This document shows, in pieces, positions 79 to 53,265 of a stretch of DNA of 64,000 bases. The stretch is taken from NCBI GenBank assembly GCA_947561715.1, contig OX387198.1, forward strand, positions 13,764,001-13,828,000. Reading direction: 5' to 3'. The stretch comes from Ascidia mentula (taxonomy: Eukaryota; Chordata; Ascidiacea; Phlebobranchia; Ascidiidae). Within the stretch, counting starts at the first letter, position 1, and every line of letters begins with the position of its first letter. The notes under the pieces are model-generated. The model saw nothing but the letters and a program-made list of their open reading frames with translations. It was not told where the DNA came from and made no database searches. The translations under genes and the position numbers were made by a program.

Positions 79-830
79 TCAATAATTGCACTGACTCAAC
101 ACTGTTTTAACTCCTATCCAAAATTTTTCATTGCGTTGAATCCACTCTTTCCTTTTCTCTTCAGTTATGTCTGTTGCCATTCTGTAAGCTTGAGTTGATT
201 TTTGAAAAAAATCCACGCTTTTATTCAGTCGATTTGTTTCAAGGCAAACAACACCAAGGTAGTTTAACAAGTGTCCGAACACTCGATGCTTTGCTGAGTT
301 TTCACCAAACTCTTTCCTCATCATTTCAAGTCCAAGTTTAATTGTTGATTCCTTCGACGAATATTCCCCGATTAAAGATTGACTCGATTGAATCTCGCAC
401 AAACACTTTACTTCATGCAGAGATTTTATTTTATCTTCCACGTTTTTAATATTTTGTATTTTGAGTCTCATCGTTTCCATGAGCGGTATCACGTGATCAC
501 GAATTATACGCTTGTTTTCAAGTTTTTGATTCAAATCCGATGTTTTCATCAAGTCTTTGCATGTCAGTCTCAAACCCCAAACACAATCCTTTACACCTTC
601 CACCCCTCTCACGTGATCGTGATGCCTTGAAAAAAATTCACCTCCAACGTCGTACAATAAAATCGATTCCAAACATTTTCCCTCTTCTCTCTTTTTATCT
701 CCAGTTGTTTCCAAATCTACTGCAGTTGTCCCAAGACCTTCAAGTGACCTTGAAAGTTGTTTTTTTGTTTTATTTGCTTCGGAATATTTTCGCTTTTTCA
801 ACAAATCCACATAAATTTTGGTGCTTTCAT
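79..830 (-). CDS. Terminal exon, gene A: TPR-like domain
   Basis: The exon opens after TTTCAG and contributes about 250 residues ending in SQCNY. The segment around LLNYLGVVCLETNRL followed by the SVDFFQKS helix has the spacing and small/aromatic pattern of a tetratricopeptide helix pair. Upstream helices contain CLESILLYDVGG and STIKLGLEMMRKEFGE. TPRs usually bind peptides of partner proteins. Compared with copy B, the last 112 residues (79..417) carry 29 replacements against one silent change, whereas the first 138 differ at two. The frame is intact. Confidence 0.8.
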
Positions 831-12800: not shown

Positions 12801-15800
12801 GTTGCACTTTAACACCAGATGAACTTTGACCTCCATCAGCACCTAGTGAAGAAAAAATGTTAGAATAAACGTTTGAAGACAAATATTTTCTGGCACAAGT
12901 CTGTTTTAAGTTTAAACTGCAGTAGAGACTGCAAGCATGATAATGTGAAGGCCACAAAGGGTAGATATTGACTCTTACATGAATCTATTCCCTATAAAAT
13001 GGATTGCCATTAGCCAATAATAGATTAGAATTACCATTCAGTGTAGAGTTGTCATTCTTAATGTTGCCTGGGTAGTTCGAGGAGTCATTCTTTCCAAACC
13101 GAGGGAAGATCTTTCTCAAAAAACTGGGCTTGGATTTTGTTTCTTCTACACAAATGTTAAACTAATGTTACAGTTGGGGTTAAAGTTAATAGTAAACTAA
13201 AATAAGTGTGTAAATTATGTTTACAAAGTTTACAAAAAGCCAATAACATGAATTCGATACAGTAGCCATCTGTATGCAGCTTACACAATTCATATTATTG
13301 GCTCTACTTTGCTTATCATATGATTATTGTGACACGGTGCCTGACGACACTATTGGTTGAGCTTTGCTTGGCCATAGTGTTTCCACCTTGTTTTCTCCGT
13401 AAGGTTGCACCTAGTTTGGTGCCCAACGGATGGCAGTGATTGTATAGTCACCACAAAGTGGAAGTCTTTGCTTTCGTCGGCAAAGTCGTCTGACAGTCAC
13501 ACCAGTTACACTAATAAGACATTGTAGGTCGAAACAGTGGCCATCTGTATGCAGCTTACGTCAGTCATGAACATCACAGTAGCCACCCTACCCCATTCCA
13601 GGGTTGTTTATACCCCACCCCCCTCCTTGTTGGTCACAAGATCTTCCAGGAGGCTCAACAAATTTTTGCTGTGTGCTGTCCCATCCAGGTGCAAATTTTA
13701 TTTTTTAAACTCTGAAGAATATTAGATCCCTATATAAGTCACAAGACCAGTCAACGGCTATTGGGAAATAAGCGAACAGTCGTCAGTTGCATTATTGCAG
13801 AGGGCCTTGAAAACAGGATTTCCATTGGTTTAATTGGCATATAGGTCCTTCAGATAAATGTTGTAGTGTTTTGTTTCATAATCTTTGTGTTTTCAATATA
13901 TACTGCAAGTAGTTGAATTTTCATTTAAATTCTAGCTCGCCATGTCCTAGCTCGCCAAGCAGGCAAGTAAACACTTACACTATGTGGTAATTATACAATC
14001 ACTGTCATCCGTTGGGCACCAAATGAAATACCTCAATGGTTTCCTAACCTTTGTGTTGGAGATGATCTGTTTGTCCCAATGCAGAATTAGAACTCAATTG
14101 GTTGTCGGTGACATCATGAAGTGCTGAGGATCGATCCCTCCCACTTGTTCCTTTAAAAACACAATTGTTGTCAATAAAATCAGCGACTTGATGCAACACC
14201 AACACATGCTGGTAATAAATACTTCAAGGGAATGTTGGGTCAGTGCTTCCACAAGGTGGAGCTATGGAGCAGTATCATCAACCAGTGAAAGCAATAAAAG
14301 CATTTTTTTTAAAGCACAGTTTTTTTTTAAAGCACAATTTTTTTTAATTTTAAAAGATAATATCATTATATTTATATGTTTGTACTGAGTGTGCAAACAC
14401 CCCTACCCCCAACTCCATGATTGAGACTTTGTGATGGGCCTGACCATAAACTTTTTGTAGCAAAAAGTAGATGTTTTAACCAGTGACTTTTAACAAGGGC
14501 AGTTGGAGGAGTGCGGTCCAGGACAACCAAACCAGTTTATTCATCCACCAATTAACACGATTTGGTCATGACTAAACAAATATGTATGATGACAATGGTG
14601 TTACATACAATTGTGTGTGTGACATCATAGGCTTTCTATAAGTTCCCTCAGTAAGTACAATTATCCTGGCTTGTACGACTGCAACATGCAACAAATTTAT
14701 GTGTACCTGGTTGTTGTTGATCTTCCTCTTCAAGGTGCGGATGTTGTTCTGTTGTTAAACCAGATGAAGATGCACTTTGTCCACCTGGTTGTTGACGGTC
14801 TTCCTCTTCAAGATGAGGATGTTGTTCTGTTGTTAAACCAGATGAAAAGGCACTTTGTGTACCTGGTTGTTGTTGATCTTCCTCTTCAAGGTGCGGATGT
14901 TGTTCTGTTGTTAAACCAGATGAAGATGCACTTTGTGTACCTGGTTGTTGTTGATCCTCCTCTTCAAGGTGCGGATGTTGTTCTGTTGGTAAACCAGATG
15001 AAAAGGCACTTTGTCTACCTGGTTGTTGACGGTCTTCCTCTTCAAGATGAGGGTGTTGTTCTGTTGTTAAACCAGATGAAGATGCACTTTGTCTACCTGG
15101 TTGTTGCTGATCTTCCTCTGCAAGATGCGGATGATGTTCTGTTGTTAAACCAGATGAAAAGGCACTTTGTCTACCTGGTTGTTGACGGTCTTCCTCTTCA
15201 AGATGAGGATGTTGTTCTGTTGTTAAACCAGATGAAGATGCACTTTGTGCACCTGGTTGTTGTTGATCTTCCTCTTTAAGGTGCGGATGTTGTTCTGTTG
15301 TTAAACCAGATGAAGATGCACTTTGTGCACCTGGTTGTTGTTGATCTTCCTCTTCAAGGTGCGGATGTTGTTCTGTTGTTAAACCAGATGAAAATGCACT
15401 TTGTGTACCTGGTTGTTGTTGATCTTCCTCTTCAAGGTGCGGATGTTGTTCTGTTGTGAAACCAGATGAATATGCACTTTGTCTACCTGGTTGTTGACGG
15501 TCTTCCTCTTTAAGATGAGGATGTTGTTCTGTTGTTAAACCAGATGAAGATGCACTTTGTCTACCTGGTTGTTGCTGATCTTCCTCTGCAAGATGCGGAT
15601 GATGTTCTGTTGTTAAACCAGATGAAGAGGCACTTTGTCTACCTGGTTGTTGACGGTCTTCCTCTTCAAGATGAGGATGTTGTTCTGTTGTTAAACCAGA
15701 TGAAGATGCACTTTGTGCACCTGGTTGTTGTTGATATTCCTCTTCAAGGTGTGGATGTTGTTCTGTTGTTAAACCAGATGAAGATGCACTTTGTGTACCT

Positions 15801-18251
15801 GGTTGTTGGTGATCTTCCTCTTCAAGATGCGGATGTTGTTCTGTTGTACCTGGTTGTTGCAACAAAAATTTGAACAAAATTGTTGAAGCATAAGGCACTA
15901 TTTAAGGAAGCCAATATGTCTGTTTATTCAGATCAATGATAATCATAATAAAACAAAATCTAACTAAGAATATGAAGTGCAATCAAATGGCACTACATAG
16001 ATACACATACAAGGAAATTAGATTTTCTTTATGAGCAATGCCTTCCAACCAGTGGTCTGCAAATTTCTTTCGGGTGGGCAGTAAAGCATGGAGCAAGTTA
16101 CCACACAAATAGACCAAGTTCACAATTAATATGAACACATTTTCGGTATAAGTGTTTAAACCATGCTCCCAAAGTGGGTAAACCACCAAAATACACCGCC
16201 ATAAAAGTCGAGACAAGCCGTACAAACACACAATCAATGACGTCATTGTGACATCACAGACTGAGGTTGTGCGCAGAGGCATGTCGGCAAAAAGTACACA
16301 GAAATGAAAAACTATTTTAGAGATGGAGTTAATAGTAAACTAACCCCCTAAAAACAATTTAGTATCTGCTCAGTTTGTATAAAACTACACTTCTTGAGTG
16401 TTAAACCATTGAGTTGTTATTTCATTGCTGTTGTGCCGTACGCCACCATATGCTCTTACATGAGAACCATTAACAGGCCAGGGTAAGTATGTTTTTCCGA
16501 TAGCTGGTAACTCTGCTTCATGAAGTGATGTTAAATGTAATTTAAGATTTGATATCATAATTTCACCATGACCAATTATCAACTAGACCCATCATTTTTG
16601 CATGTACAAATACAAACTACTTAAGTTTAGTTACACTATTTTACCTGTTTCCTGCGGTGAACTTTGCACAACATTTCCTTGCTGTTGTACGTTAACAAAA
16701 GTGGTTGTTTCGGGCGATGCGTCAACAACTGCTGGAATTTCACCCTCCCCACTTCTTGCTGTCACCTCTAAAATTTAATCCGGTTTTTTATTTCGGCAAA
16801 TGTAAGATTTAGTGGTGCAAGTCAAAGAAATAGAAATATTGAATCATGGTTCACTGTGGATAGTTTTACAGAAGCAACACACAGTGATATCCAAACTTTA
16901 CCATTGCCTTCTGATCCATTCACTTGTTTATGTTCGCCAAACTCGTCCGACTGAAGCTTCGGATTCTGCACAGAAATAAATACAACATCAAAACAAATTA
17001 TATTTCACTTTAAAGTGCATGCAACACCGAAAAATAAAACATGTTAATAATTAAACTAAGAGATAGTCATAACTGTACGACGACTGGTTTCTGAGATACA
17101 GCTGATCAAAGTCTCATTTTTACCGTTGCGAACGAAATCGTGCGAAAGCGCGATTAGTGTTGCGTGACGTCATAGAAGGCGCTTTGGTCGTGCGAGTGCT
17201 GGCAGCAAGCCTTATGCGCAGGTATGGAAAACATTGTAAAACTGGTTTAGTATAGTATTGCAGTAAACAGGAGCACAACAAGTGCAACAAACTGATTTTG
17301 ATGTTAATTTGAGCTGTATAGACAGGTGGTCTCTGTTTCGACCTATTATGTCCTATTTAGTTTTGGAATAATACAACAGTTACTGGGACAGGGTGTTCTT
17401 GTTGTTACAGCATTTATGATCGCTAACGTGATACATGAACTTTTGGAAACACGACAGGGACAAACCGTCAATATAGCATTGTCGTTTAGTCAACTGACAG
17501 CAAAAATAGAAGTAGTTTAATTGAATTTTGTCCGACAATGACCAACGAGACGCTAGTCGACAAAACTCTGAACGCCCATAACTTTGCCGTTTCTCAATAG
17601 ATTTCGATGATTTTCGTACAGGTTGCATGGATGGCACGTAGGTTTAAAAGATATAAAAAATAAAAAAATTCAACGATTTATGGGACGAATATTAATGTAC
17701 ATTGTCATAAATCGGTCATAGCAACCTTATTTGAACCGCGGCCACGACCATTCATACACCGTTGGAAACTACATTAAAAACCCTTTCCAACCATACCAAA
17801 CTTGTCTAATTATCGCATCTGAATGTTAAAGACTTAATAACGAAAATCTGTATTTTTTTATGACGGTTATGAATAATATTCGGTCAGTATAGGCGTTCAA
17901 TAATGCCTCCGGCTTGTTGCTCGTTGTTGCTGCTGCTTCCCTTAATTCTGCCTTTCAGTCCCTTATTAACTCGACGCTTTTCTGCAACCTGCTGTAGTAG
18001 TATTGATGATGAACCAAGTATAAGTTCGAAACGTTTACTGAAAATGATTAACAGCATCTTAGCTTTGGCTTTTTTATTCGAAGTTATTAACTCCACTTAT
18101 TTTGCACCCAAGTATTCTGTCATACTTTTCCTGATTTTGCGTTGTAGCCTACATATTAAGATGTAAAATAAATTATGAAAAGCATTAGGCTAAGTAACTA
18201 ACATAAATTCTCGAATTCAAAAAATGTACTTACCTCTGATTGATTGTCCAT
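79..18251 (-). CDS. Modular repeat/TPR protein gene, copy A (12-exon model)
   Basis: I do not recognise the family; the model comes from splice signals and phase. Exons in transcript order: 18234..18251, 16902..16965, 16645..16767, 14707..15849, 14049..14150, 13035..13145, 12762..12842, 12078..12188, 11088..11195, 10821..10901, 10147..10257, 79..830. Together they are 2805 bases, an uninterrupted 934-residue frame. The start exon reads MDNQSE and has no signal peptide, so the product is probably cytoplasmic. An acidic Ser/Thr/Gln-rich N-terminus is followed by about 14.6 copies of a 26-residue repeat, a run of small linker modules and a C-terminal TPR-like domain. Every junction from exon 2/3 onward is phase 1, so internal exons can be gained or lost without a frameshift. 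The last intron holds a Polinton. Transcript support is unknown and some small exons may have been missed. Confidence 0.72.
831..1376 (-). other. Intron between terminal exon and Polinton (copy A)
   Basis: AT-rich intron sequence shared with 33895..34440. It contains the AACGTC target at 1371..1376. I see no other gene or RNA here. Confidence 0.6.
1371..1376 (+). repeat. Target site duplication, left (AACGTC)
   Basis: Six bases abutting the AG terminus. The partner at 9918..9923 is GACGTC. The unoccupied paralogous site at 32138..32143 reads AACGTC once. Confidence 0.88.
1377..1785 (+). repeat. Left terminal inverted repeat of Polinton A
   Basis: It matches the reverse complement of 9739..9917 in three blocks: the outer 16 bp, the GAGAGCGCAGAGAG tract with TCATGACCCCGGTTTGACC, and TTTCGGCCATTGCAAAGC through GGACGACGTCTAAA. 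About 180 bp after the outer block, with internal CTGAGATTCTCT-like repeats, and about 65 bp farther in are absent from the right arm, so the arms are asymmetric. Confidence 0.8.
2190..3230 (+). pseudogene. Protein-primed DNA polymerase B remnant, core deleted (Polinton A)
   Basis: The N-terminal landmark DNLCVFRC lies at 2440..2463, preceded by a short KINCSFSF segment. Downstream are a NLDLTSNHF segment near 2704 and a Cys-pair zinc-finger-like stretch near 2770. The sequence then jumps directly to the family's C-terminal region (REPGKFEVEF, ALSAKTYNC, FQVVNQNVFTR-like) at about 2840..3200. The exonuclease and polymerase motifs expected between them, including a YTDTDS-type motif, are absent. 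Several frameshifts divide the rest. This replication gene is dead here. Family assignment rests on remembered motifs of Polinton PolB. Confidence 0.72.
3432..3938 (+). repeat. Dispersed repeat inserted in Polinton A
   Basis: About 507 bp, also present at 36435..36941 in Polinton B and, outside any Polinton, at 32584..33085 immediately downstream of gene B. It starts at TTACCACTAGTG and ends at CATGTACTGAAAAAG. In the Polintons it is flanked by an imperfect duplication of about 180 bp of Polinton DNA (3242..3420 and 3950..4140). No protein is evident. Confidence 0.8.
4550..5400 (-). pseudogene. Adenain-like cysteine protease remnant (Polinton A)
   Basis: The minus strand contains GTHW, the catalytic-His motif of adenovirus/Polinton maturation proteases, followed by an EMFDTFARPP-type segment at about 4740..4640. 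A FRGVYARD segment typical of the N-terminal part lies near 5250..5280. About 475 bp at 4775..5246 that copy B lacks separates these pieces. A stop follows shortly after GTHW in this copy (the FY of copy B is lost). The enzyme would process capsid proteins. It is not functional. Confidence 0.65.
5637..6600 (-). pseudogene. Major capsid protein (double jelly-roll) remnant, Polinton A
   Basis: The minus strand carries the N-terminal PTQTSVSSSLLVKYPPLA segment (about 6525), a LNDTLL segment, and C-terminal blocks around FLRKMKPSAAITLAHQKTL (about 5940), VRVVLGFVD and NPFEF, then AFQPDF (about 5640). These are the hallmarks of the Polinton hexon-like capsid protein. At least three frame changes break it. 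Copy B keeps the C-terminal half (38124..38594) as one open frame. Confidence 0.82.
6600..6950 (-). pseudogene. Possible minor capsid (pVI-like) remnant, Polinton A
   Basis: It lies between penton-like and capsid remnants. The better frame is in copy B (39106..39423, minus), basic and Gly/Arg-rich with RRLLGGSPT and a run of Arg/Ala near the end. Polintons often have a small basic membrane-active protein here. The call rests on position and composition only. Confidence 0.28.
7000..7345 (-). pseudogene. Penton-like minor capsid protein remnant, Polinton A
   Basis: The minus strand from about 7320 reads YLTLPSNNPPEHFPNN and then a NFTKKLPTV segment and IGLSEIIFPSSWN, the characteristic start of the Polinton penton-like protein. 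Here the Trp codon before EIGL is TGA, while copy B has TGG at that place. Downstream GWFDIS and IRYTLEAGQH segments remain, then the frame fails. The expected C-terminal half is missing. Confidence 0.7.
7591..8001 (-). pseudogene. Unidentified Polinton reading frame
   Basis: A 136-residue minus-strand open frame upstream of the penton-like remnant, with MTLVAVSHANEEEVWNNLYG near its start. The copy B counterpart (40228..40524) is shortened by indels. I do not recognise it. It may be part of a structural gene or may lack function. Confidence 0.35.
8000..8560 (-). pseudogene. Polinton-conserved small protein remnant (A)
   Basis: This corresponds to the clearer copy B frames (40508..41345). 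It is shortened here: the VKLYVQALQRY segment seen in B is missing, and the stretch near 8390 contains an immediate repeat of ACGACCCACATCCGTAAAAAAC. The protein family recurs in Polintons but I know no function for it. Confidence 0.4.
8640..8880 (-). pseudogene. Polinton-conserved small protein with NVLKG motif (A)
   Basis: The minus strand reads CKAQPKVARAIINAAGPDLMK, then a TGA, then ISECSHNVLKGNFDR, then another TGA. The pattern resembles a small protein commonly found between ATPase and capsid genes in Polintons. Copy B has lost two bases of the CGCG run and is out of frame at the start. Confidence 0.55.
8880..9500 (-). pseudogene. FtsK/HerA-type packaging ATPase remnant, Polinton A
   Basis: The minus strand has RIIWYYGQWQVG and LPDRIKFVPGA, then shifted frames with VVFKN and QIAHLARQVFP and a C-terminal YLVFYCRQQTPD segment. 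The Walker A motif is best read in copy B. The ATPase would pump DNA into capsids. Here the Walker B area (near 9200) is frameshifted. Confidence 0.72.
9739..9917 (-). repeat. Right terminal inverted repeat of Polinton A
   Basis: Complement of the left arm, with a (CT)n run at 9860..9880 and the terminal CACCTATATACTACT. It lacks two stretches present in the left arm. Confidence 0.85.
10147..10257 (-). CDS. Exon 11, gene A (RSSFLRK module)
   Basis: 111 bases, phase 1 to phase 1, acceptor TTGTTCAG, donor GTAATT. It encodes GSTRSRSSFLRKIIPRFGKK and a polar tail ending STLNG. It is identical in design to exon 8, from which it differs only through the tandem duplication. The function of the module is unknown. 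Confidence 0.65.
10821..10901 (-). CDS. Exon 10, gene A (ADGGQSSSG module)
   Basis: 81 bases, phase 1-1, acceptor CTTCACTAG, donor GTACAT. It encodes ADGGQSSSGVKVQQQSHAKE and a Gln-rich tail. Duplicate of exon 7. Confidence 0.65.
11088..11195 (-). CDS. Exon 9, gene A (TKSKPSFLRK module)
   Basis: 108 bases, phase 1-1. The acceptor AACACAG follows a run of T on the minus strand; donor GTAATT. It encodes ATKSKPSFLRKIFLRFGKND and a polar tail. Duplicate of exon 6, with a slightly different 5' edge. Confidence 0.62.
11393..11848 (+). mobile_element. Polinton right-end fragment created by tandem duplication
   Basis: It matches 7229..7374 (penton-like region) joined to 9609..9917 (right end with TIR) and is followed by the same GACGTC and host DNA as the parent element. 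It has no left end. It arose as a passenger of the duplication, not by a new insertion. Confidence 0.9.
12078..12188 (-). CDS. Exon 8, gene A (RSSFLRK module)
   Basis: 111 bases, phase 1-1, acceptor TTGTTCAG, donor GTAATT. Its coding sequence is the same as exon 11. Confidence 0.65.
12762..12842 (-). CDS. Exon 7, gene A (ADGGQSSSG module)
   Basis: 81 bases, phase 1-1, acceptor CTTCACTAG, donor GTACAT. Ser/Gln-rich linker ending in NRQQEQ. Confidence 0.65.
13035..13145 (-). CDS. Exon 6, gene A (TKSKPSFLRK module)
   Basis: 111 bases, phase 1-1, acceptor TTTGTGTAG, donor GTAATT. It encodes EETKSKPSFLRKIFPRFGKN and a polar tail. The basic FLRKIFPRFGK core is shared with the RSSFLRK module, so the two are old duplicates of each other. 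Confidence 0.65.
13430..13545 (+). repeat. Dispersed repeat (GTCGAAACAG family)
   Basis: The sequence runs from CAACGGATGGCAGTGATTG through AGTCACACC to GTCGAAACAGTGGCC. Related copies lie at 21610..21745 and 24715..24845 (minus), 44330..44440 (plus), 54060..54180 (minus) and 60218..60295 (plus). No coding potential seen. Confidence 0.55.
14049..14150 (-). CDS. Exon 5, gene A (TSGRDRSS module)
   Basis: 102 bases, phase 1-1, acceptor TTTTTAAAG, donor GTTAGG. It encodes GTSGRDRSSALHDVTDNQLS and a hydrophilic tail ending QHKG. Conserved in copy B with two changes. Confidence 0.62.
14707..15849 (-). CDS. Exon 4, gene A: 26-residue tandem-repeat region
   Basis: 1143 bases, about 14.65 copies of a 78-bp unit encoding TTEQHPHLEEEDQQQPG then TQSASSSGL. 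The segment is acidic, Gln/Ser-rich and probably disordered or elongated. Acceptor CAACAACCAG before GTACAACAG; donor CAG|GTACAC at the low end. Every unit boundary repeats the CAG|GTACA word, so each could serve as a splice acceptor or donor in phase 1. Copy B has about 7.65 units. Confidence 0.75.
14707..15849 (-). repeat. 78-bp minisatellite (coding), copy A
   Basis: Units differ at a few positions (E/K/A after HL, D/Y, Q/R/H, T/A/R/G, S/F/Y). Variants such as EHHPHLAEED recur at intervals, which points to block duplication inside the array. Confidence 0.9.
15850..16644 (-). other. Intron 3, gene A
   Basis: Non-coding on the evidence of copy B, where frames differ and two TIR elements (46450..47187, 47628..48459) have landed. 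It contains TGACGTCATTGTGACATCA near 16,238. Nothing else recognised. Confidence 0.5.
16645..16767 (-). CDS. Exon 3, gene A
   Basis: 123 bases, phase 1-1, acceptor TTAAATTTTAG, donor GTAAAA. It encodes EVTARSGEGEIPAVVDASPE and a Thr/Val/Gln-rich tail. Conserved in copy B. Confidence 0.65.
16902..16965 (-). CDS. Exon 2, gene A
   Basis: 64 bases, phase 0 to phase 1, acceptor TTTCTGTGCAG, donor GTAAAG. It encodes NPKLQSDEFGEHKQVNGSEG and one more Asn. Acidic and polar. Confidence 0.65.
16966..18233 (-). other. Intron 1, gene A
   Basis: AT-rich. It contains a CRE-like TGACGTCA near 17,164, a partial GTCGAAACAG-family repeat near 17,330 and the hairpin repeat at 17,890. The plus-strand frame at 17326..17520 is not convincingly coding. 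Confidence 0.5.
17890..18118 (+). repeat. Hairpin repeat with CTGATGA/GAAAC core
   Basis: It contains a TGATGATGAACC, loop, GTTCGAAACG hairpin flanked by AGTAGTA/TTTACT. Other copies: 22062..22290, 50103..50330 and the foldback at 29619..29939. The core resembles, imperfectly, a hammerhead-ribozyme or kink-turn motif (one extra T after CTGATGA). Confidence 0.55.
18234..18251 (-). CDS. Exon 1 (start), gene A
   Basis: ATG in the context AACAATGG, encoding MDNQSE, donor GTAAGT, phase 0. The same exon occurs in copy B (50418..50435) and again at 22407..22424. Confidence 0.65.
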
Positions 18252-20430: not shown

Positions 20431-20439
20431 GTTATTGTA

Positions 20440-20815
20440 GAATGCAACAATCCAGAAATCGCTGCAGAATGCAACGATCCACAAAACGCTGCAGAATGCA
20501 AAAATCCACAAAACGCTGCAGAATGCAACAATCCACAAATCGCTGCGGAATGCAACCATCCAGAAATCTCTGCAGAATGCAACGATCCACAAATCGCTGC
20601 AGAATGCAACAATCCACAAATCGCTGCAGAATGCAACCATCCACAAATCGCTGCAAAATGCAACGATCCACAAATCGCTGCAGAATGCAACCATCCACAA
20701 ATCTCTGCAAAATGCAACGATCCAGAAATCTCTGCAGAATGCAACGATCCAGAAATCGCTGCAGAATGCAACAATCCACAAATCTCTGCAGAATGCAACG
20801 ATCCACAAATCGCTT
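20440..20815 (+). repeat. 27-bp minisatellite, array A1 (about 14 units)
   Basis: Unit GAATGCAACGATCCAGAAAT + CGCTGCA. Variants alternate GAT/AAT/CAT and AGAA/ACAA. The period is a multiple of three and the unit carries few stops in any frame, so most frames look open. I do not regard these as genes. Confidence 0.92.
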
Positions 20816-23352: not shown

Positions 23353-23918
23353 AGAATGCAACAATCCGCAAATCGCTGCAGAATGCAACGATCCACAAAT
23401 CGCTGCAGAACACAACAAACCACAAAACGCTGCAGAATGCAACAATCCAGAAATCGCTGCAGAATGCAACCATCCACAAATCGCTGCAAAATGCAACGAT
23501 CCAGAAATCGCTGCAGAATGCAACGATCCAGAAATCGCTGCAGAATGCAACCATCCAGAAATCGCTGCAAAATGCAACGATCCAGAAATCGCTGCAGAAT
23601 GCAACGATCCTGAAATCGCTGCAGAATGCAACGATCCAGAAATCGCTGCAGAATGCAACGATCCTGAAATCGCTGCAGAATGCAACCATCCAGAAAACGC
23701 TGCGGAATGCAACCATCCAGAAATCGCTGCAGAATGCAACGATCCTGAAATCGCTGCAGAATGCAACGATCCAGAAATCGTTGCAGAATGCAACGATCCT
23801 GAAATCGCTGCAGAATGCAACGATCCAGAAATCGTTGCAGAATGCAACGATCCTGAAATCGCTGCAGAATGCAACCATCCAGAAAACGCTGCGGAATGCA
23901 ACCATCCAGAAATCGCTT
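23353..23918 (+). repeat. 27-bp minisatellite, array A2 (about 21 units)
   Basis: Same unit as array A1. An inner alternation of GATCCTGAAATCGCTGCA and GATCCAGAAATCG(C/T)TGCA makes a 54-bp higher-order pattern at 23,600..23,860. A CATCCAGAAAACGCTGCGG pair occurs twice (about 23,690 and 23,877). Confidence 0.92.
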
Positions 23919-29618: not shown

Positions 29619-29939
29619 TTGGGTGCAAAATATTTGGAGTTGATAACTTTGAAAATGAAAGCCAAAGCTAAAATGCTGTTAATCATTAGTAAACGTTTCG
29701 AACACTAACTGCGTTCATCATCAGTACTACCATGAGCGCATGGAAGAAAAGCGTCGGGGTGACATGCCTCAAGCCTGTTGCTCGTTGTTGCTGCTGCTGT
29801 TTCCCTTCTGCCTGCTCTGTCCTTTATTACCCCGACGCTTTTCTTGCATGCGCTCATTGTAGTACTGATGATGAACCCAGTAAGTGTTCGAAACGTTTAC
29901 TAATGATTACCAGCATTTTAGCTTTGGCTTTCATTTTCA
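29619..29939. mobile_element. Foldback (inverted-repeat) element
   Basis: Two arms of about 110 bases (29651..29760 and 29829..29938) are near-perfect inverted copies of the CTGATGA/GAAAC hairpin repeat, separated by 68 bases. The insertion is flanked by AACTAAACAT / AACTGAACAC, an imperfect 10-bp duplication, and is absent at the matching place in copy B (near 58,590). Confidence 0.75.
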
Positions 29940-31220: not shown

Positions 31221-31981
31221 CTACTGTTGTAACAATCCTGTAACTTCTTGCAAATTGTTTTCACCTATTTCAATCCACTCCTCTCTTTCCTTTTCAGTTA
31301 TGTCTGTTGCCATTCTGTAAGCCTGGATTGCTTGTTGATAAAAATTCATGCTTTCATTCAGTCGATGTGTTTCCTTGCAAACAACACCAAGGTTGTATAA
31401 CAACTGTCCGAACACTTCATACTTTGCTGAGTTTTCACCAAACTGTTTCCTCATCATTTCAAGTCCAAGTTTAATTGTTGATTCCATCGACGAATAATCT
31501 CCAATTGAAAGTTGACTCACTCCAATCTCATGCAAACACTGCACTTCATAAATGCATTTTATTTCATCTTCCACGTTATGAATATTTTGTATTTTGAGTC
31601 TCATCGTTTCCATGAGCGGTATCGCATGATCATGAATCATTCGTTTGTTTTCAAGTTTTTGATTCGAATCCGATGTTTTCATCAAATCTTCGCATGTCAG
31701 TCTCAAAACCCTAACGCAATCCCAAACACCATTCACCCCTCTCACGTTATCGTAATGCCTTGCATAAAATTCACCTCCAAGGTCGTACAATAAAATCGAT
31801 TCAAAAAATTTTCCATCTTCTCTCTTTTTATCTCCAGTTGTTTCCAAATCTTCTGCAGTTGCCCCACGACCTTCAAGTGACCTTGAAAGTTGGTTTCTTG
31901 TTTCATTTGCTTCAGGATATTTTTGCTTTTCCAACAAATCCGCGTATTTTTTTGTCAGGGAATTAAGGTTGATATTTTCAT
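31221..31981 (-). CDS. Third TPR terminal exon, solo
   Basis: Opens after TTCTGTTTCAG in phase 1, like the terminal exons of genes A and B, and encodes about 253 residues. Relatives of every helix are present (LESILL becomes FESILLYDLGGEFYARHYD; LLYNLGVVCKETHRLNESMN). The frame is intact and more divergent than A and B are from each other. No upstream exons belong to it alone; it lies about 1.2 kb downstream of gene B's terminal exon and could be spliced as an alternative last exon of gene B. Confidence 0.65.
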
Positions 31982-32583: not shown

Positions 32584-33085
32584 TACCACTAGTGTCTAGA
32601 GTGGCTGTCACTGATTTAAGGCAAGCTTGAGGTGATGAACCTATATTAAATGCACGGAGTCAGTATTATAACATTTTACCTCATTATAGGAATCTCTGGT
32701 TACCTGTTTGCTGACCGGTTCTCTGCACGATCTGCTCATTTGTTTCACCGCTAGATGGCCGAAGGTGAGTGACGTAATGGGAGGTGGTTGCAAGCTCTTC
32801 AGTACCTCGAATTGCTGCAAAAACAAATTTTTACCTATAATAGGACAAGTTTTATCATATGAAGTTATGTCATAGTTACAACACCATACCAAATATATTA
32901 AATCAACCCCTGTTTACGCCGTTCAACAGATCAACAAATTCTTGTGGCAAATTATCGGGCATGAAAATTACTGTGGAGGACAACGTTGGACTTGACAAGA
33001 AAACTTTATGTATTTGACAAATCCATGTCTCACAGCATGTTTAAAAATCCCCACATTGTTAACATAAAGTATTCATGTACTGAAA
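32584..33085 (+). repeat. Dispersed repeat / gene 3' flank also found in Polintons
   Basis: The same sequence as 3432..3938 and 36435..36941, but here outside the Polinton and continuous with the DNA 3' of gene B. This may be the source of the Polinton-borne copy or an independent insertion. Confidence 0.7.
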
Positions 33086-33142
33086 AAGAAATTAGTAAGT
33101 GAATATACAAACTAACGATTCAGTAATTCCCAATAAAATGTA

Positions 33143-33894
33143 TCAAAAATTGCACTGACTCAACAATGGTTTAATTCCTCTACAAGATTCTTCATTTATT
33201 TTAATCCACTCTTTCCTTTCCTCTTCAGTTATGTCTGTTGCCATTCTGGAAGCTTGAATTGATTTTTGAAGAAAATCCACGCTTTCATTCAGTCGATTTG
33301 TTTGATGGCAAACAACACCAAGGTTGTTTAACAAGTGTCCGAACACTCCATACTTTGCTGAGTTTTCACCAAACTCTTTCCTCATCATTTCAAGTCCAAG
33401 TTTAATTGTTGATTCTATCGACGAATAATCCCCGATTGAATGTTGACACATTTGAATCCCGCACAAACAATTCACTTCATTCAGAGATTTTATTTTATCT
33501 TCCACGTTTTTAATATTTTGTATTTTGAGTCTCATCGTTTCCATGAGCGGTATCACGTGATCACGAATTATACGCTTGTTTTCAAGTTTTTGATTCAAAT
33601 CCGATGTTTTCATCAAGTCTTTGCATGTCAGTCTCAAACCCCAAACACAATCCTTTACACCTTCCACCCCTCTCACGTGATCGTGATGCCTTGAAAAAAA
33701 TTCACCTCCAACGTCGTACAATAAAATCGATTCCAAACATTTTCCCTCTTCTCTCTTTTTATCTCCAGTTATTTTCAAATCTACTGCAGTTGTCCCAAGA
33801 CCTTCAAGTGACCTAGAAAGTTGTTTTTTTGTTTTATTTGCTTCGGAATATTTTCGCTTTTTCAACAAATCCACATAAATTTTGGTGCTTTCAT
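33143..33894 (-). CDS. Terminal exon, gene B: TPR-like domain
   Basis: 752 bases as in copy A, same acceptor and stop position. Residues 1-138 are nearly identical to A (two changes). The C-terminal 112 residues (33143..33481) differ at 29 positions, e.g. LNNLGVVCHQTNRLNESVDF here, with a single silent difference (GTA/GTG). Confidence 0.8.
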
Positions 33895-42800: not shown

Positions 42801-45800
42801 CTTTTGCAGACCTACTGTTTTCACAAATATACCAAAGATACATAAGCAGCGCTCCAGGACCGTTTATGTCCTCCACAACATGCAATAATGCAGTTGACCT
42901 TGGAAACTGAATTTTATAGATTTTAATTGCCATAAACATACATGTTATAATGACTTGGCCATCAGCCAATAATAGATTAGAGTTACCATTCTGTGTAGAG
43001 TGGCCATTCTTACTGTTGTCTGGGTAGTTGGGGGAGTCTTTCTTTCCAAACCGAGGGAAGATCTTTCTCAAAAAGCTAGACCTGGATCTAGTTGAGCCTG
43101 AACAATTGCCAAAGTTACAGATTAATTATCTCAAAGTTTAGTTTTGTAAATAATTTTATTTAAACCGTTAAACCTGTGTTTGTCGACCCTTGGTCTATGG
43201 TGAAAATAGCTTCATTTTCTACAGCTCACATATGGGAGTTTGTTATTGCTCCAATATTTTTATGACACCAAGATTTTGTTACTTTGTATTTGTAACAAAT
43301 AAATATTCCACAAAAAGTTCCAATAAGAACAAAAACAGTAATGCAAGTTTACAAAATTTAATTTGGTAAACAAACTGTTTTTCATAAAGTTTTGCCTCAC
43401 TTGTAATAAGTCACAATATGTTTAAAAGCATTAGGATAAATTGACCAGACACATTACATTACATCGTACTATGAGATGCAGACAGTAGTGCACACTGCTT
43501 GACATGTTAGGTCTCATCACTGCAGCTAATGACTGTAACAGAAAACCAGCTTTTAAACTAGCGGAGAATTTTCCACTTGTCCTTGCAGGTCAAAACAGCT
43601 CTAATGGACTACTGTCTGCAATTAAATTGGTATTATTGCTCTTTTGCTACTGTTATGTACCTTGTTCTTGTTGATGATTCTCTGTAGCATGGGATTGTTG
43701 TTGCACTTTAACACCAGATGAACTTTGAGGTCCATCAGCACCTAGTGAGGAAAAAATGTTAGAATAAACGTTTGAAGACAAATATTTTCTGGCATAAGTC
43801 TGTTTTAGGTTTAAACTGCAGTAGAGACTGCAAGCATGATAATCTGAAGGCCACAAAGGGTAGATATTGACTCTTACATGAATCTATTTCCTATAAAATG
43901 GATTGCCATTAGCCAATAATAGATTAGAATTACCATTCATTGTAGAGTGGTCATTCTTAATGTTGCCTGGGTAGTTGGGGGAGTCTTTCTTTCCAAACCG
44001 AGGGAAGATCTTTCTCAAAAAACTGGGCTTGGATTTTGTTGCTTCTACACAAATGTTAAACTAATGTTACAGTTGGGGTTTTAAGTTAAAGTAAACTAAA
44101 ATAAGTAAAATAACTATGTTTACAAAGTTTACAAAAAGCCAATAATATGAATTCGATACAGTAGCCATCTGTATGCAGCTTACACAATTCATATTATTGG
44201 CTCTACTTTGCTTATCATATGATTATTGTGACACGGTGCCTAACGACACTATTGCTTGAGCTTTGCTTGGCTATAGTGTTTCCACCTTGTTTTCTCCATA
44301 AGGTTGCACCTAGTTTGGTGCCCAACGGATGACGGTGATTGTGTAGTCACCACAAAATGGAAGTCTTTGCTTTCGTCGGCAAAGTCGTATAAGAGTCACA
44401 CCAGCTACACTAATGAGACATTATAGGTCGAAACAGTGGCCATCTGTATGCAGCTTACGTCAGCCATGAACATCACAGTAGCTACCCTACCCCATTCCAG
44501 GGTTGTTTATACCCCGCCCCCCTCCTTGTTGGTCACAAGATCTTCCAGGAGGCTCAACAAATCTTAGCTGTGTGCTGTCCCATCCATGTGCAAATTTTAT
44601 TTTTTAAACTCTGAAGAATATTAGATCCCTATATAAGTCACAAGACCCGTCAACGGCTATCGGGAAATAAGCAAACAGTCGTCAGTTGCATTATTGCATA
44701 GGGCCTTGAAAACAGGATTTCCATTTGTTTAATTGGCATATAGGTCCTTCAGATAAATGTTGTGGTGTTTTGTTTCATAATCTTTATGTTTTCAATATAT
44801 ACTGCAAGTAGTTGAATTTTCATTTAAATGTCTTTTTGTGACAGTTACAAAATTATTATTTGCATCTTATTTTTACATTTCAGATCAAGAAAATTGACAA
44901 TCAAAACAACTATATCTAAATGGATTCTGTGTGGTGCAGACAAATAGGAACTGTTTTAATTTACTTGGTCACTTTAGTGCAGCTTGGTGATTGTAAATGT
45001 TCTAGCTCGCCAAGCAGGCAAGTCGCCGAGCAGGTATACAATCACTGTCATCCGTTGGGTACCAAATGAAATACCTCAATGGTTTCCTAACCTTTGTGTT
45101 GGAGATGATCTGTTTGTCCCAATGTAGAATCAGAACTCAATTGGTTGTCGGTGACATCATGAAGTGCTGAGGATCGATCTCTCCCACTTGTTCCTTTAAA
45201 AACACAATTGTTGTCAATAAAATCATGGACTTGATGCAACACCAACATATGCTTTACTTTAACATACTTTAAGGGAATGTTGGGGCAGTGCTTCCACAAG
45301 GTGGAGCTATGGAGCAGTATCATTAACCAGTGAAAGCATCAAAAGCATTTTTTTTAAAGCACAGAACAAATTTTTTAAACTTTAAAACATAATATCATTA
45401 GATTTATATGTTTGTACTGAGTGTACACATCCCTACCCCTAACTCCATGATTGTGACTTTATGCCTGACCTGACCATAAACTTTTTGTAGCAAAAGTAGA
45501 TGTTTTAACCAGTGACTTTTAACAAGGGCAGTTGGAGGAGTGCGGTCCAGGACAACCAAACCAGATTATTCATCCACCAATTAACACGATTTGGCCATGA
45601 CTAAACAAATATGTATGATGACAATGGTGTTACATAAAAATTTGTGTGTGACATCATAGGTTTTCTATAAGTTCCCCCAGTAACTACAATAACCCTGGCT
45701 TGTACGACTGCAACACGCAACAAATTTATGTGTACCTGGTTGTTGTTGATCTTCCTCTTCAAGGTGTTGATGTTGTTCTGTTGTTAAACCAGATGAAGAT

Positions 45801-48800
45801 GCACTTTGTCTACCTGGTTGTTGACAGTCTTCCTCTTCAAGATGAGGATGTTGTTCTGTTGTTAAACCAGATGAAGATGCACTTTGTCTACCTGGTTGTT
45901 GCTGATCTTCCTCTACGAGATGAGGATGTTGTTCTGTTGTTAAACCAGATGAAGATGCACTTTGTGTACCTGGTTGTTGCTGATCTTCCTCTTCAAGATA
46001 CGGATGTTGTTCTGTTGTTAAACCAGATGAAGATGCACTTTGTGTACCTGGTTGTTTCTGATCTTCCTCTACAAGATGCGGATGTTGTTCTGTTGTTAAA
46101 CCAGAGGAAGATGCACTTTGTGTACCTGGTTGTTGGTGATCTTCCTCTTCAAGATACGGATGTTGTTCTGTTGTTAAACCAGATGAAGATGCACTTTGTA
46201 TACCTGGTTGTTGCTGATCTTCCTCTACAAGATGCGGATGTTGTTCTGTTGTAAAACCAGATGAAGATGCACTTTGTGTACCTGGTTGTTGGTGATCTTC
46301 CTCTTCAAGATACGGATGTTGTTCTGTTGTACCTGGTTGTTGCAACAAAATTTGAACAAGATTGTTGAAGCATAAGGCACTATTTAAGGAAGCCAACATG
46401 TCTGTTTATTCAGATAAATGATTATCATAATAAAACAAAGTCTAACTTAAGGCCCGTTTACACTACAGACGATTCCGTGTTTGTTTTATTGTGCGCGCGT
46501 GCTGAGTTGTGTTGGGATGGGATGTGCCGGTCTGTGCTAGGATGTGCTCGCTTTTGCTCGACGAGCATAAATTCGGGCACAGTTGGGCACATTTCGGCAC
46601 ACATTGATGCGAGAGTGCAAGGCGACTGCTTGAAAGGAGAGGACATATATTATTTTAGTGGTGGTTGTGTGATGCGGCCGCGTTTGACATATGAGCGATT
46701 GTTTTTAAGAGTATGAAATGGTGCCGTAACTGAATTACAAAGTGGTGTGTGGAACGGCGTCTCAGCGGGATGCTGCTGTGGAACCTTTGTCTTGTTTCAA
46801 TTATAGGCTACCATCTTGTTTTTTATAATCTGTGATGTTTGGTTCAGCATATTGTAGTGTTACCTTGCGTCGTAAAAAATTATGCAAAACATTACATGCC
46901 TTAACTGTGTAAAACAGTACATGCTTTTTGTTGAAGAATATGTACAGCCAATAGCAACAACTTCAATTTGTACTTATAATAACGCTGGCGGGGCCGAGAA
47001 ATGCAAGGCAAGACTGACATCCTTCAAAAATTATCAACGTAACTTGTCACTTGCACTTGCCAGTTTCGTGGTTATTACAGGGAAATCCCTGTAGTCGTGT
47101 TCGATTATTCCAGTAGTGTAAACGCCGTGTGTGCCATACTGTGCTGTGCTGTGCCGTGCCAAACTGTGTTCGTGTGTAAACGGGCCTTAAGAATATGAAG
47201 TGCAATCAAATGGCACTACACAGATACACATACAAGGAAATTAGATTTTCTCTGAGAGAAATGCCTTTCAACCAGTGGTCTGCAAATTTCTTTCAGGTGG
47301 GCAGTAAAGCATGAAGCAAGTCACCACACTAATAGGCCAAGTTCACAGTTAATATGAACACATTTTGGGTATAGGTGTTTAAACTATGCTCCCAAAGTGG
47401 GTAAACCACCAAAATACATCGCCATAAAAGTCGGGACAAGCTGTACAAACACACAATCAATGACGTCATTGTGACATCACAGACTGAGGTTGTGCGCAGA
47501 GACATGTCGGCACAATGTAAACAGATATGAATAACTATTTTAGAGATGGAGTTAATAGTAAACTAACCCCCTAAAAACAATTTAGTGTTTGCTCAGTTTG
47601 TATTAAACTACACTTCTTGAGTGTTAAAGGCCGCATCTCTCAATTAAATCCCAAAAATTGAGTTTTAGAAGTCATTTGTTATTGTGCACCTGGTTACAGT
47701 TTCTCTTGTTTGCCAAAAACAATTGCCGGGTCTGATGACTCATGAAGGGTTACTACTATTGCTGAACAGAAAAAAATTGATTGCAGCTGCATTAAGACAG
47801 CACATTGGGGGGTTTTGCAAAGGCTAACTGCTAAATTGTCAGTCCTAGGGGGTGTACAAACAGCCCCGGTGGGGCCCCAAGACAATTACAAAACATCTAA
47901 TTCTTCATGAATTGTGTAGAGGAGGGTTGGTGGCTTCACTTAATCGCAAATGGAGGTGACTTTCTGTGATTCATTTTTTCACAAAACAAACCTACACTTT
48001 TTTCTGCTTTTTTGACCAAAATAATGGCCAACAGAGGGTCAAAATGCCCCCGGGGGAGCAGTTTAAGTAGTTATTTCGATTATAAATTTGGCCACAATTC
48101 CTTGCCAAGGGTCCGCACTGACAGAAAATCACAAATTGAACATACTTTCTGTGATTCATTTTTTCACAAAATCAACCTCAATATTTGGGTAGTTTTTCAG
48201 CTACATGTACAACAGCACCCTCTACCAATTTACTGCCTGACTAATAACCCTGAAAAACAAACTAAAACTGCCCCAAACACGCTGAAAATCGCCCTGGCAA
48301 CAGCCTGTTCATCTGCGCTCATTCAACCAAAACACTGGCGCCCATGCATGACCCATTGCATTGTTACACATAATTTTACACTGTTACGCAGGACAGAGTT
48401 CGAGAAGGGCAATTCCCAACCGGGAAAGTCTTTTCCATAGAAATACAGAGATGCGGCCTAAAACATAGTTGTTATTTCATTGCTGTTGTGTCATACGCCA
48501 CCTTATGCTCTCACATGAGAACCATTAACAGGCCAGGGTAGGTATGTTTTTCCGACAGCTGGTAACTCTGCTTCATGAAGTCATGTTAATGTAATTTAAG
48601 GTTTGATATCATAATTTGACCATAACCAATTATCAACTAGACCCAACATTTTTGCATGTACAAACTACTTAAGGTTTAGTTACACTATTTTACCTGTTTC
48701 CTGTGGTGAACTTTGCACAACATTTCCTTGCTGTTGTACATTAACAACACTGGTTGTTTCGGGCGATGCGTCAACAACTGCTGGAATTTCACCCTCACCA

Positions 48801-51961: not shown

Positions 51962-52754
51962 TAAGCAACACCTGGTAATGTGGATTATGACACGCAAACG
52001 CATTATCACCCTTCAATAAAATGGTTGACGCTTTCAACAGTTATGTTACAAATTTACAATGCATATTAACAGAGAGTGTCCTGATAAAATGTAGTTATTT
52101 TTATTCAGTGAATGTTTATTAATTGATGTCACACTACTTAGTGTAAAGTCATAATTATTGATACGCGTGTTTCAGGTCAAGTCGGTGCCTGAATGTTGCG
52201 GGACATAATTCCTACCGAAAAAACAGAGGATTTTATTTAATGGAAGGAAGAGTTTTACTACTAAACATTTCGCAGCAAGGTTATAGGGGCTTTAAGCTTG
52301 ACAAACACATCTTGATTACTTTGTTAGCTTCCCAAACAAGGCTCAGCCGATCCAAGAGATGGTAAAATGACACTCGTTCATATTAGGCTAGGTCGACACG
52401 CGCCGACAGAATATTGGTTTGTTTCTTCGTTCGTCCACCCGGAAGCTGATTTGCACCAAGCACTGCTTGATTACTGAAACTGGTATTTCAGTAGTTCTAA
52501 AACTGTCGCAACAGTCGTTGACAATTTCAACAAAATATTGGAGTTTAACTGCTACACATAACATAAAGGCAGTCAATTTGTGAGGTAAAGTAATGTAAAA
52601 CATACAAATTGGCGAATATGAGAGGATTTGAACACAATTAAATGTAGTTTAGCTGATGTGTTTGGAACATGAGTCAGCGCAGCATGGACTTCGTTTAAAC
52701 GGACGTTGTTAGCACACGTTGCTATGTTGCGAACAAACATGCATTGTAGTTGCA

Positions 52755-53265
52755 GAATGCAACAATCCACAAATCGCTGCAGAATGCAACTATCCAGAAA
52801 TCGCTGCAGAATACAACAAACCACAAAACGCTGCAGAATGCAAAAATCCACAAAACGCTGCAGAATGCAACAATCCAGAAATCGCTGCAGAATGCAACCA
52901 TCCACAAATCGCTGCAAAATGCAACGATCCAGAAATCTCTGCAGAATGCAACGATCCATAAATCGCTGCGGAATGCAACGATCCATAAATCGCTGCAGAA
53001 TGCAACGATCCATAAATCGCTGCAGAATGCAACGATCCACAAATCGCTGCAGAATGCAACGATCCAGAAATCTCTGCAGAATGCAACGATCCAGAAATCG
53101 CTGCGGAATGCAACGATCCATAAATCGCTGCAGAAGGCAACGATCCACAAATCGCTGCAGAATGCAACGATCCATAAATCGCTGCAGAAGGCAACGATCC
53201 ACAAATCGCTGCAGAATGCAACGATCCACAAATCGCTGCAGAATGCAACGATCCAGAAATCGCTT
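52755..53265 (+). repeat. 27-bp minisatellite, array B (about 19 units)
   Basis: Same unit as A1/A2, but several units read GATCCATAAATCGCTGCA, which puts TAA codons in the frame that stays open in A. The other frames remain open. Confidence 0.92.

Follow-up and report, generated by a model that had tools for sequence, protein, structure and literature searches.

A tandemly expanded TPR-type exon family in a sea squirt with a predicted groove under strong diversifying selection

What kind of evolution makes two paralogous exons differ over one half almost exclusively by amino-acid replacements and leaves the other half nearly alike? This question is raised by exons A (79..830, minus strand) and B (33143..33894, minus strand) in the analysed stretch of Ascidia mentula DNA (64,000 nucleotides, hereafter the window), which lies on contig C2 of the 195.8-Mb assembly that was searched. 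Two GH6 matches in this assembly agree with a tunicate source, GH6 being a mark of tunicate cellulose synthase. A is a terminal exon with a TTTCAG acceptor at 831 and encodes a TPR-like helical domain of ~249 residues followed by a stop; its paralogue B is likewise opened by a splice acceptor. Exon C (31221..31981, minus strand), a second paralogue type, lies ~1.2 kb downstream of B with the acceptor and phase found in B. The original prediction reported 29 replacements and one silent change between A and B in the last 112 residues, with the preceding part of the exon nearly unchanged. With the frame anchored at the stop codon and B numbering (residue 257 being the last before the stop), our re-count reproduced these numbers exactly. 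Thirty codons differ among codons 146-257 (82..417 in A and 33146..33481 in B, minus strand), the sole silent difference being GTA/GTG at residue 148, and codons 9-144 hold two replacements (residues 48 and 49) and one silent change (residue 34).

Path counting yielded 32.5 replacement and 2.5 silent nucleotide steps in codons 145-257. The chance probability for this pair alone ranged from 0.003 to 0.06 depending on the counting scheme (0.0032 for at most one silent difference in 30 codons, 0.0056 and 0.020 for at most two silent in 35 steps, and 0.0635 for at most three silent in 35 steps); taken alone, the pair provides modest evidence for a departure from neutral expectation. In a profile of 150-bp blocks, the raised divergence between A and B ran past the stop codon and spanned about -405 to +417, covering the 3' flank and the C half at 4-11% per block, and the remaining blocks of the duplicated unit were mostly at 0-3%, with a few at 5-6%.

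The surroundings of B are themselves duplicated. Window positions 29927..~49700 are nearly identical to C2:13866386..~13886161 (99.8% in a direct alignment of 3 kb), with equal offsets and identical exons B and C and repeat frame further on. The twin of B at C2:13869605 is nucleotide-identical over the exon and shows one difference to B over the unit profile, suggesting either that the segment was duplicated very recently or that the assembly retains a haplotype. A conserved block at 32584..33088 (minus strand), ~55 bp past the stop of B, is putative 3' flank or UTR. With positions compared by eye, 10 of its 17 genome matches lie ~55 bp past the stop of an A-type exon, and three others are copies upstream of A-type exons. 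We rejected the reading of this ~500-bp block near A and B as a mobile repeat, as it is mostly 3' flank of A-type genes. Elsewhere in the window, 27-bp minisatellites with long open frames occupy 20439..20814, 23353..23917 and 52751..53264, ten other frames gave no Pfam match above the cut-off, and Rfam gave no match at the gathering score.

Searching the genome with protein B returned at least 148 scored exon matches from 286 candidates. They lie mostly on C2 (0.19-0.32, 0.79-1.40, 2.1-3.05 and 13.76-13.87 Mb, with a few further ones at 14.98-14.99 and 15.85 Mb), and some are on C71, C52, C69, C70, C1 and C67. Counted by eye, 124 of the 148 have no stop in the matched stretch and 24 have one. 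A splice acceptor in one common phase opens all 18 members that were printed out. On C2 at 2.2-2.7 Mb (minus strand), TPR exons recur in triplets with near-fixed spacing (~2-2.5 and 1.5 kb), and two matches on C71 are separated by only ~360 bp; the C71 pair and the recurrent triplets suggest that some genes may possess two or three alternative last exons. For further analyses, we took the best 70 of the 148 matches, of which 68 were distinct (L010 and L032 being identical to L009 and L031), and left out L026 (premature stop, 106 residues), so that 67 were used. Codon models were fitted to 54 of the 67, and 48 of the 68 distinct exons entered the structure alignment. All but one of the distinct exons (67/68) read to or near the usual end, in a sample biased to intact exons because it was drawn from the best 70 of 148.

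The family belongs to the TPR superfamily by both its profile motif (the 34-residue helix-turn-helix) and its superhelix of paired antiparallel helices. At E 0.01, the TPR_12 profile matched 36 of the 48 aligned members (best 7.5e-9) and TPR_2 matched 34, B itself falling under the curated TPR cut-off (18.2 vs 30.1 bits). A sequence search of the PDB returned chiefly short TPR matches. No homologue outside this genome was detected at E 1e-3 with either a single sequence or the 48-member alignment, in a collection that may hold few animals.

Does the replacement excess reach beyond A and B? The original prediction had proposed strong diversifying selection on the TPR surface and a family-wide dN/dS analysis as its test. 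Site models were run with our own code, using FastTree topologies and IQ-TREE branch lengths, and fitted separately to three subfamilies of 16, 16 and 22 sequences. M2a was favoured over M1a with 2dlnL of 249, 309 and 472, M8 over M8a with 249, 305 and 466, and M2a assigned omega2 of 9.4, 7.9 and 8.4 to 12, 12 and 17% of codons, respectively. Whole-exon omega (M0) was 1.3, 1.6 and 2.1, and 32-43% of codons were at omega 0.09-0.18. Seventeen codons had posteriors above 0.9 in all three subfamilies, but these calls are naive empirical Bayes and come from our own code rather than PAML or HyPhy, and recombination renders the underlying trees approximate. Any two subfamilies had 18-19 selected sites in common, against 2.3-3.6 expected. 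In null simulations made for A's subfamily, the statistic reached at most 3.2 in four runs without recombination and at most 18.4 in eight runs with heavy recombination (six segments, shuffled trees), indicating that even heavy simulated recombination does not reproduce the model signal. These data, with a class at omega 8-9, bear out the proposed selection: omega exceeds 1 at surface sites, and this is robust to recombination.

The A/B pair samples a pattern common to the whole family, and the A/B changes fall on 13 of the 25 C-half sites selected in other subfamilies (P 0.001). The same models removed one part of the original prediction, namely that selection is confined to the C-terminal half, as five of the 17 common codons (88, 92, 95, 96 and 99) lie in the N half, at positions where A and B are identical. 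Correspondingly, 84 pairs with pS < 0.05 had pN/pS of 2.33 and 2.27 in the two halves, a ratio that falls towards 1 in wider sets. The lowest-pS pairs (e.g. 60.5 replacements to 1.5 silent) are picked extremes and not typical.

Introns supplied a neutral reference for these sites. The hypervariable codons for this comparison were taken solely from the two other subfamilies, which avoids the circularity of an earlier set of 24 codons chosen by entropy, and 85 pairs were compared among members with 1.5-kb flanks and alignable introns. In the 42 pairs with introns less than 8% diverged, replacement divergence at hypervariable codons was 0.27-0.49 against intron means of 0.033-0.059, an excess of 7-11 times. 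Silent divergence in these codons was 0.05-0.13, and both replacement and silent divergence in the exon outside them were near the intron value. In the 43 pairs with introns above 8%, hypervariable silent divergence was 0.11-0.26 and replacement divergence stayed at ~0.45, so that the excess over introns drops to 3-4 times. The most variable columns fall into four blocks, where they are mostly spaced 3-4 residues apart, and in many of their codons the first two bases vary widely and the third hardly. At the 17 sites, variation at the third codon position was 0.21, compared with 0.53 and 0.57 at the first and second. The second positions of these core codons almost lack C (3%), and Ser (TCN), Pro, Thr and Ala are therefore rare in the predicted groove.

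The structure predicted for the B homologue (pLDDT 95.1, pTM 0.90) allowed the selected sites to be mapped, as had been proposed. Sixteen of the 17 lie on helices 5, 7, 9 and 11 of the model (P 1e-7), on one face of each, and this face corresponds to the predicted concave groove of the TPR domain. In A, the hypervariable codons of helix 5 (88-99) are at 556..591, those of helix 7 (149-160) at 373..408, those of helix 9 (190-204) at 241..285 and those of helix 11 (233-247) at 112..156, all on the minus strand. Their B counterparts are 33620..33655, where A and B are identical in spite of family-wide positive selection, and 33437..33472, 33305..33349 and 33176..33220. With the TPR register of helix 7 inferred from the G15 turn, its sites 149, 152, 153, 156, 159 and 160 occupy TPR positions 2, 5, 6, 9, 12 and 13. 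In the excerpted text of PMC1261162, these are the positions through which the TPRs of HOP bind peptides, so that the selected positions of helix 7 coincide with the contact positions of HOP-type receptors. Strong diversifying selection on the groove is thus well supported. Judged from fold and positions, the predicted groove likely binds peptides, and its ligand would be variable and peptide-like. A predicted groove that changes far faster than neutral DNA within a domain that stays recognisable is the pattern that a repertoire of recognition receptors would be expected to show.

Fungal NLRs, with their TPR and ANK repeats, provide the nearest known case. In the excerpted text on Podospora anserina (PMC4986451), the selected TPR positions are on the concave face and copies exchange sequence, both as in this family. 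The fungal proteins differ in carrying near-identical tandem repeats within a gene, on NB-ARC or NACHT, whose number changes (the same excerpts of PMC4986451), whereas the ascidian family has an 11-helix domain in a terminal exon, more than 100 copies and no NOD domain found attached. TPR positions 2, 5, 9, 12 and 13 are listed among the most variable across TPR repeats in the excerpts of PMC1261162, but that variability is across repeats of all kinds, whereas here it arises within one family at omega 8-9. The groove of 14-3-3 proteins is formed by helices 3, 5, 7 and 9 of nine, which helices 5, 7, 9 and 11 of the model here would match in order. However, the inner surface of 14-3-3 is highly conserved and its outside variable, the reverse of this family, in which groove positions are the most variable; moreover, Pfam 14-3-3 matched none of the 48 members at E 0.01, and identity in the 14-3-3 rows was 7-11%. 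The family thus shows neither the sequence match nor the conserved inner groove of 14-3-3. The TPR domains of NASP and LGN/Pins are also among the closest known systems. They are conserved partners of histones and cell-polarity proteins, and we know of no hypervariable groove in them. Among the titles and abstract openings listed from open-licence PMC papers, none described a family of this sort in ascidians, and the excerpted text of a lancelet pangenome paper (PMC12373286) mentions neither TPR nor NACHT.

Which upstream exon and partner domains might accompany the groove? No ATG exon with a phase-1 donor scored above the limit in 17 of the 18 members searched (14 with up to ~1.45 kb and four with ~0.4 kb upstream), and the sole candidate, in L034, had a weak donor. 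A short ATG stretch before a conserved intron block was rejected, both its ATG and its GT being unconserved in seven aligned members. The window also holds 78-bp tandem repeats with an open 26-residue repeat frame, in the A unit at 14651..15901 and in the B unit at 45668..46405 (both minus strand), the array of the B unit being open on the opposite strand too (45652..46254). The donor-like end of this frame could fit phase 1 by eye, yet its nine matches are all at the 13.8 Mb locus save one weak match on C70 (21% identity), and it was discarded as the 5' exon of the family. The NACHT profile gave at least 95 scored matches from 317 candidates. C2 carries four of these, and in two cases a TPR exon lies on the opposite strand at distances of 8 and 10 kb. 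Dense tandem NACHT frames, ~20 kb apart, occur on C71 at 14.2-15.3 Mb and 0.68-0.95 Mb. Also on C71, the plus-strand NACHT frame at 16010165-16010665 precedes two TPR exon matches of that strand (16017942-16019989; one with a stop) by 7.3 kb, so that a NACHT-TPR gene is possible there. The Death profile gave 17 matches, none inside the C2 TPR clusters, and HEPN_DZIP3 matched nowhere in the genome and was hence uninformative. Across these three profiles, no signalling domain clearly tied the family to immunity.

The original prediction had further offered recombination from an unseen divergent paralogue. The step in divergence at 417 is a recombination or homogenisation boundary in the A/B pair and not the edge of selection. 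The N halves of A and B are 0.7% apart, and each is ~3% from that of exon D (13847998); in the C half, the A-B, B-D and A-D differences are 10.3, 7.6 and 9.1%. The introns of A and B are 1.6% diverged from each other and 5.0-5.4% from that of D. The N halves of A and B would be alike because they were recently shared or homogenised. Most simply, A, B and D would have separated at ~5%, after which sharing or homogenisation between A and B affected the upstream flank and N half and left an older, selected C half. Across the family, PHI tests indicated recombination in two subfamilies (P 0.002 and 0.016) but not in A's two groups (P 0.51 and 0.72, with 50 and 45 informative sites). The nearest neighbour differs between halves in 50 of 67 members, to which noise at hypervariable sites contributes. 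Among the 351 pairs formed by 27 members, 38 had pS < 0.06, and in 13 of these, lying 0.85-1.2 Mb apart, the flanks could be aligned on neither side, which suggests either exon-confined exchange or very fast turnover of the flanks.

Taken together, we consider it about 75% probable that this is an expanded family of TPR-type last exons whose groove is under very strong diversifying selection and whose exon is reshuffled by exchange. A and B would belong to a large sea squirt gene family that expanded in tandem and encodes, in its last exon, a compact helical domain of TPR type whose helices follow a 14-3-3-like course. Residues lining the predicted groove, on one face of helices 5, 7, 9 and 11, would diversify under selection at omega ~8-9, with the remaining residues conserved or nearly neutral. 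Copies would duplicate and exchange sequence, which would reshuffle the exon, and the A/B pair would combine a recently shared N half and flank with an older C half retaining selected differences.

Several other explanations have to be weighed against this reading. The A/B step could stem from a conversion tract whose donor, a divergent paralogue or allele, is unseen, selection being ordinary and the 29:1 ratio carried by that donor. The inclusion of the 3' flank in the raised divergence, the different nearest neighbours of the two halves in most members (50/67) and the fact that the deposited assembly is one haplotype (according to the excerpted text of PMC11109543) are consistent with such a tract. 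Nevertheless, with B's identical twin set aside, none of the 66 other members came closer than 7.6% to the C half of B or 9.1% to that of A, and the best other genome match of the A segment was 92% among the 40 of 152 candidates that were scored. A donor invoked by the original prediction is also not needed, as the silent divergence of the C half (3.7%) and the divergence of the 3' flank (~5%) fit the split of A, B and D. Moreover, the replacement excess recurs in all three subfamilies fitted, so that a donor too would have been shaped by that selection, and we regard this explanation as unlikely. Still less probable, and very unlikely in our view, is that groove codons are mutational hotspots, by targeted hypermutation or cassette copying, rather than targets of selection on ordinary mutations. 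Such hotspots would agree with the similar hypervariable divergence (0.27-0.49) across mean intron divergences of 3-15%, with the rarity of C at second positions (3%) and with the copying confined to exons that the 13 of 38 low-pS pairs suggest. However, untargeted mutation would not leave silent divergence as low as 0.05-0.13 (introns < 8%) and third positions least variable, and the selected sites track the groove face of the model. That a tandem array is decaying into pseudogenes or evolving under relaxed constraint is scarcely credible: the stops in 24 of 148 matches (by eye, some perhaps in the intron part) and the similar replacement and silent divergence outside hypervariable sites would suit it, but decay would give omega 1 and not 8-9, 32-43% of codons are at omega 0.09-0.18, and nearly all distinct exons from the best 70 of 148 are near full length.

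A different alternative accepts the selection and assigns it to a role other than immunity, such as gamete recognition, self-sterility or a diversifying internal partner. Ascidians have self/non-self recognition of gametes, which lends this alternative some weight, whereas copy number and a NACHT-rich genome suit immunity circumstantially. We hold a non-immune role to be a real possibility, if the less probable one. Under the preferred reading, diversifying selection on the groove of an expanded, exchanging exon family, its members would form a germline repertoire for pathogen or non-self molecules inside cells, and the family may thus serve immunity or non-self recognition. A bolder version would see a germline repertoire of more than 100 peptide receptors that use a 14-3-3-like domain in inverted form, its groove variable and its outside conserved, with whole-exon cassettes exchanged between clusters up to ~1.2 Mb apart, a choice of two or three last exons in some genes and renewal outpacing the surrounding DNA. 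As a whole, this version is tentative and rather doubtful.

A whole-exon omega of 1.3-2.1 together with groove codons common to three subfamilies is, in our judgement, rare, and such a pattern of selection would mark a recognition surface ahead of any ligand. Tunicates are more closely related to vertebrates than any other animals, and this family would be a concrete and testable candidate, with named contact residues, for the recognition of pathogens or non-self in tunicates without antibodies.
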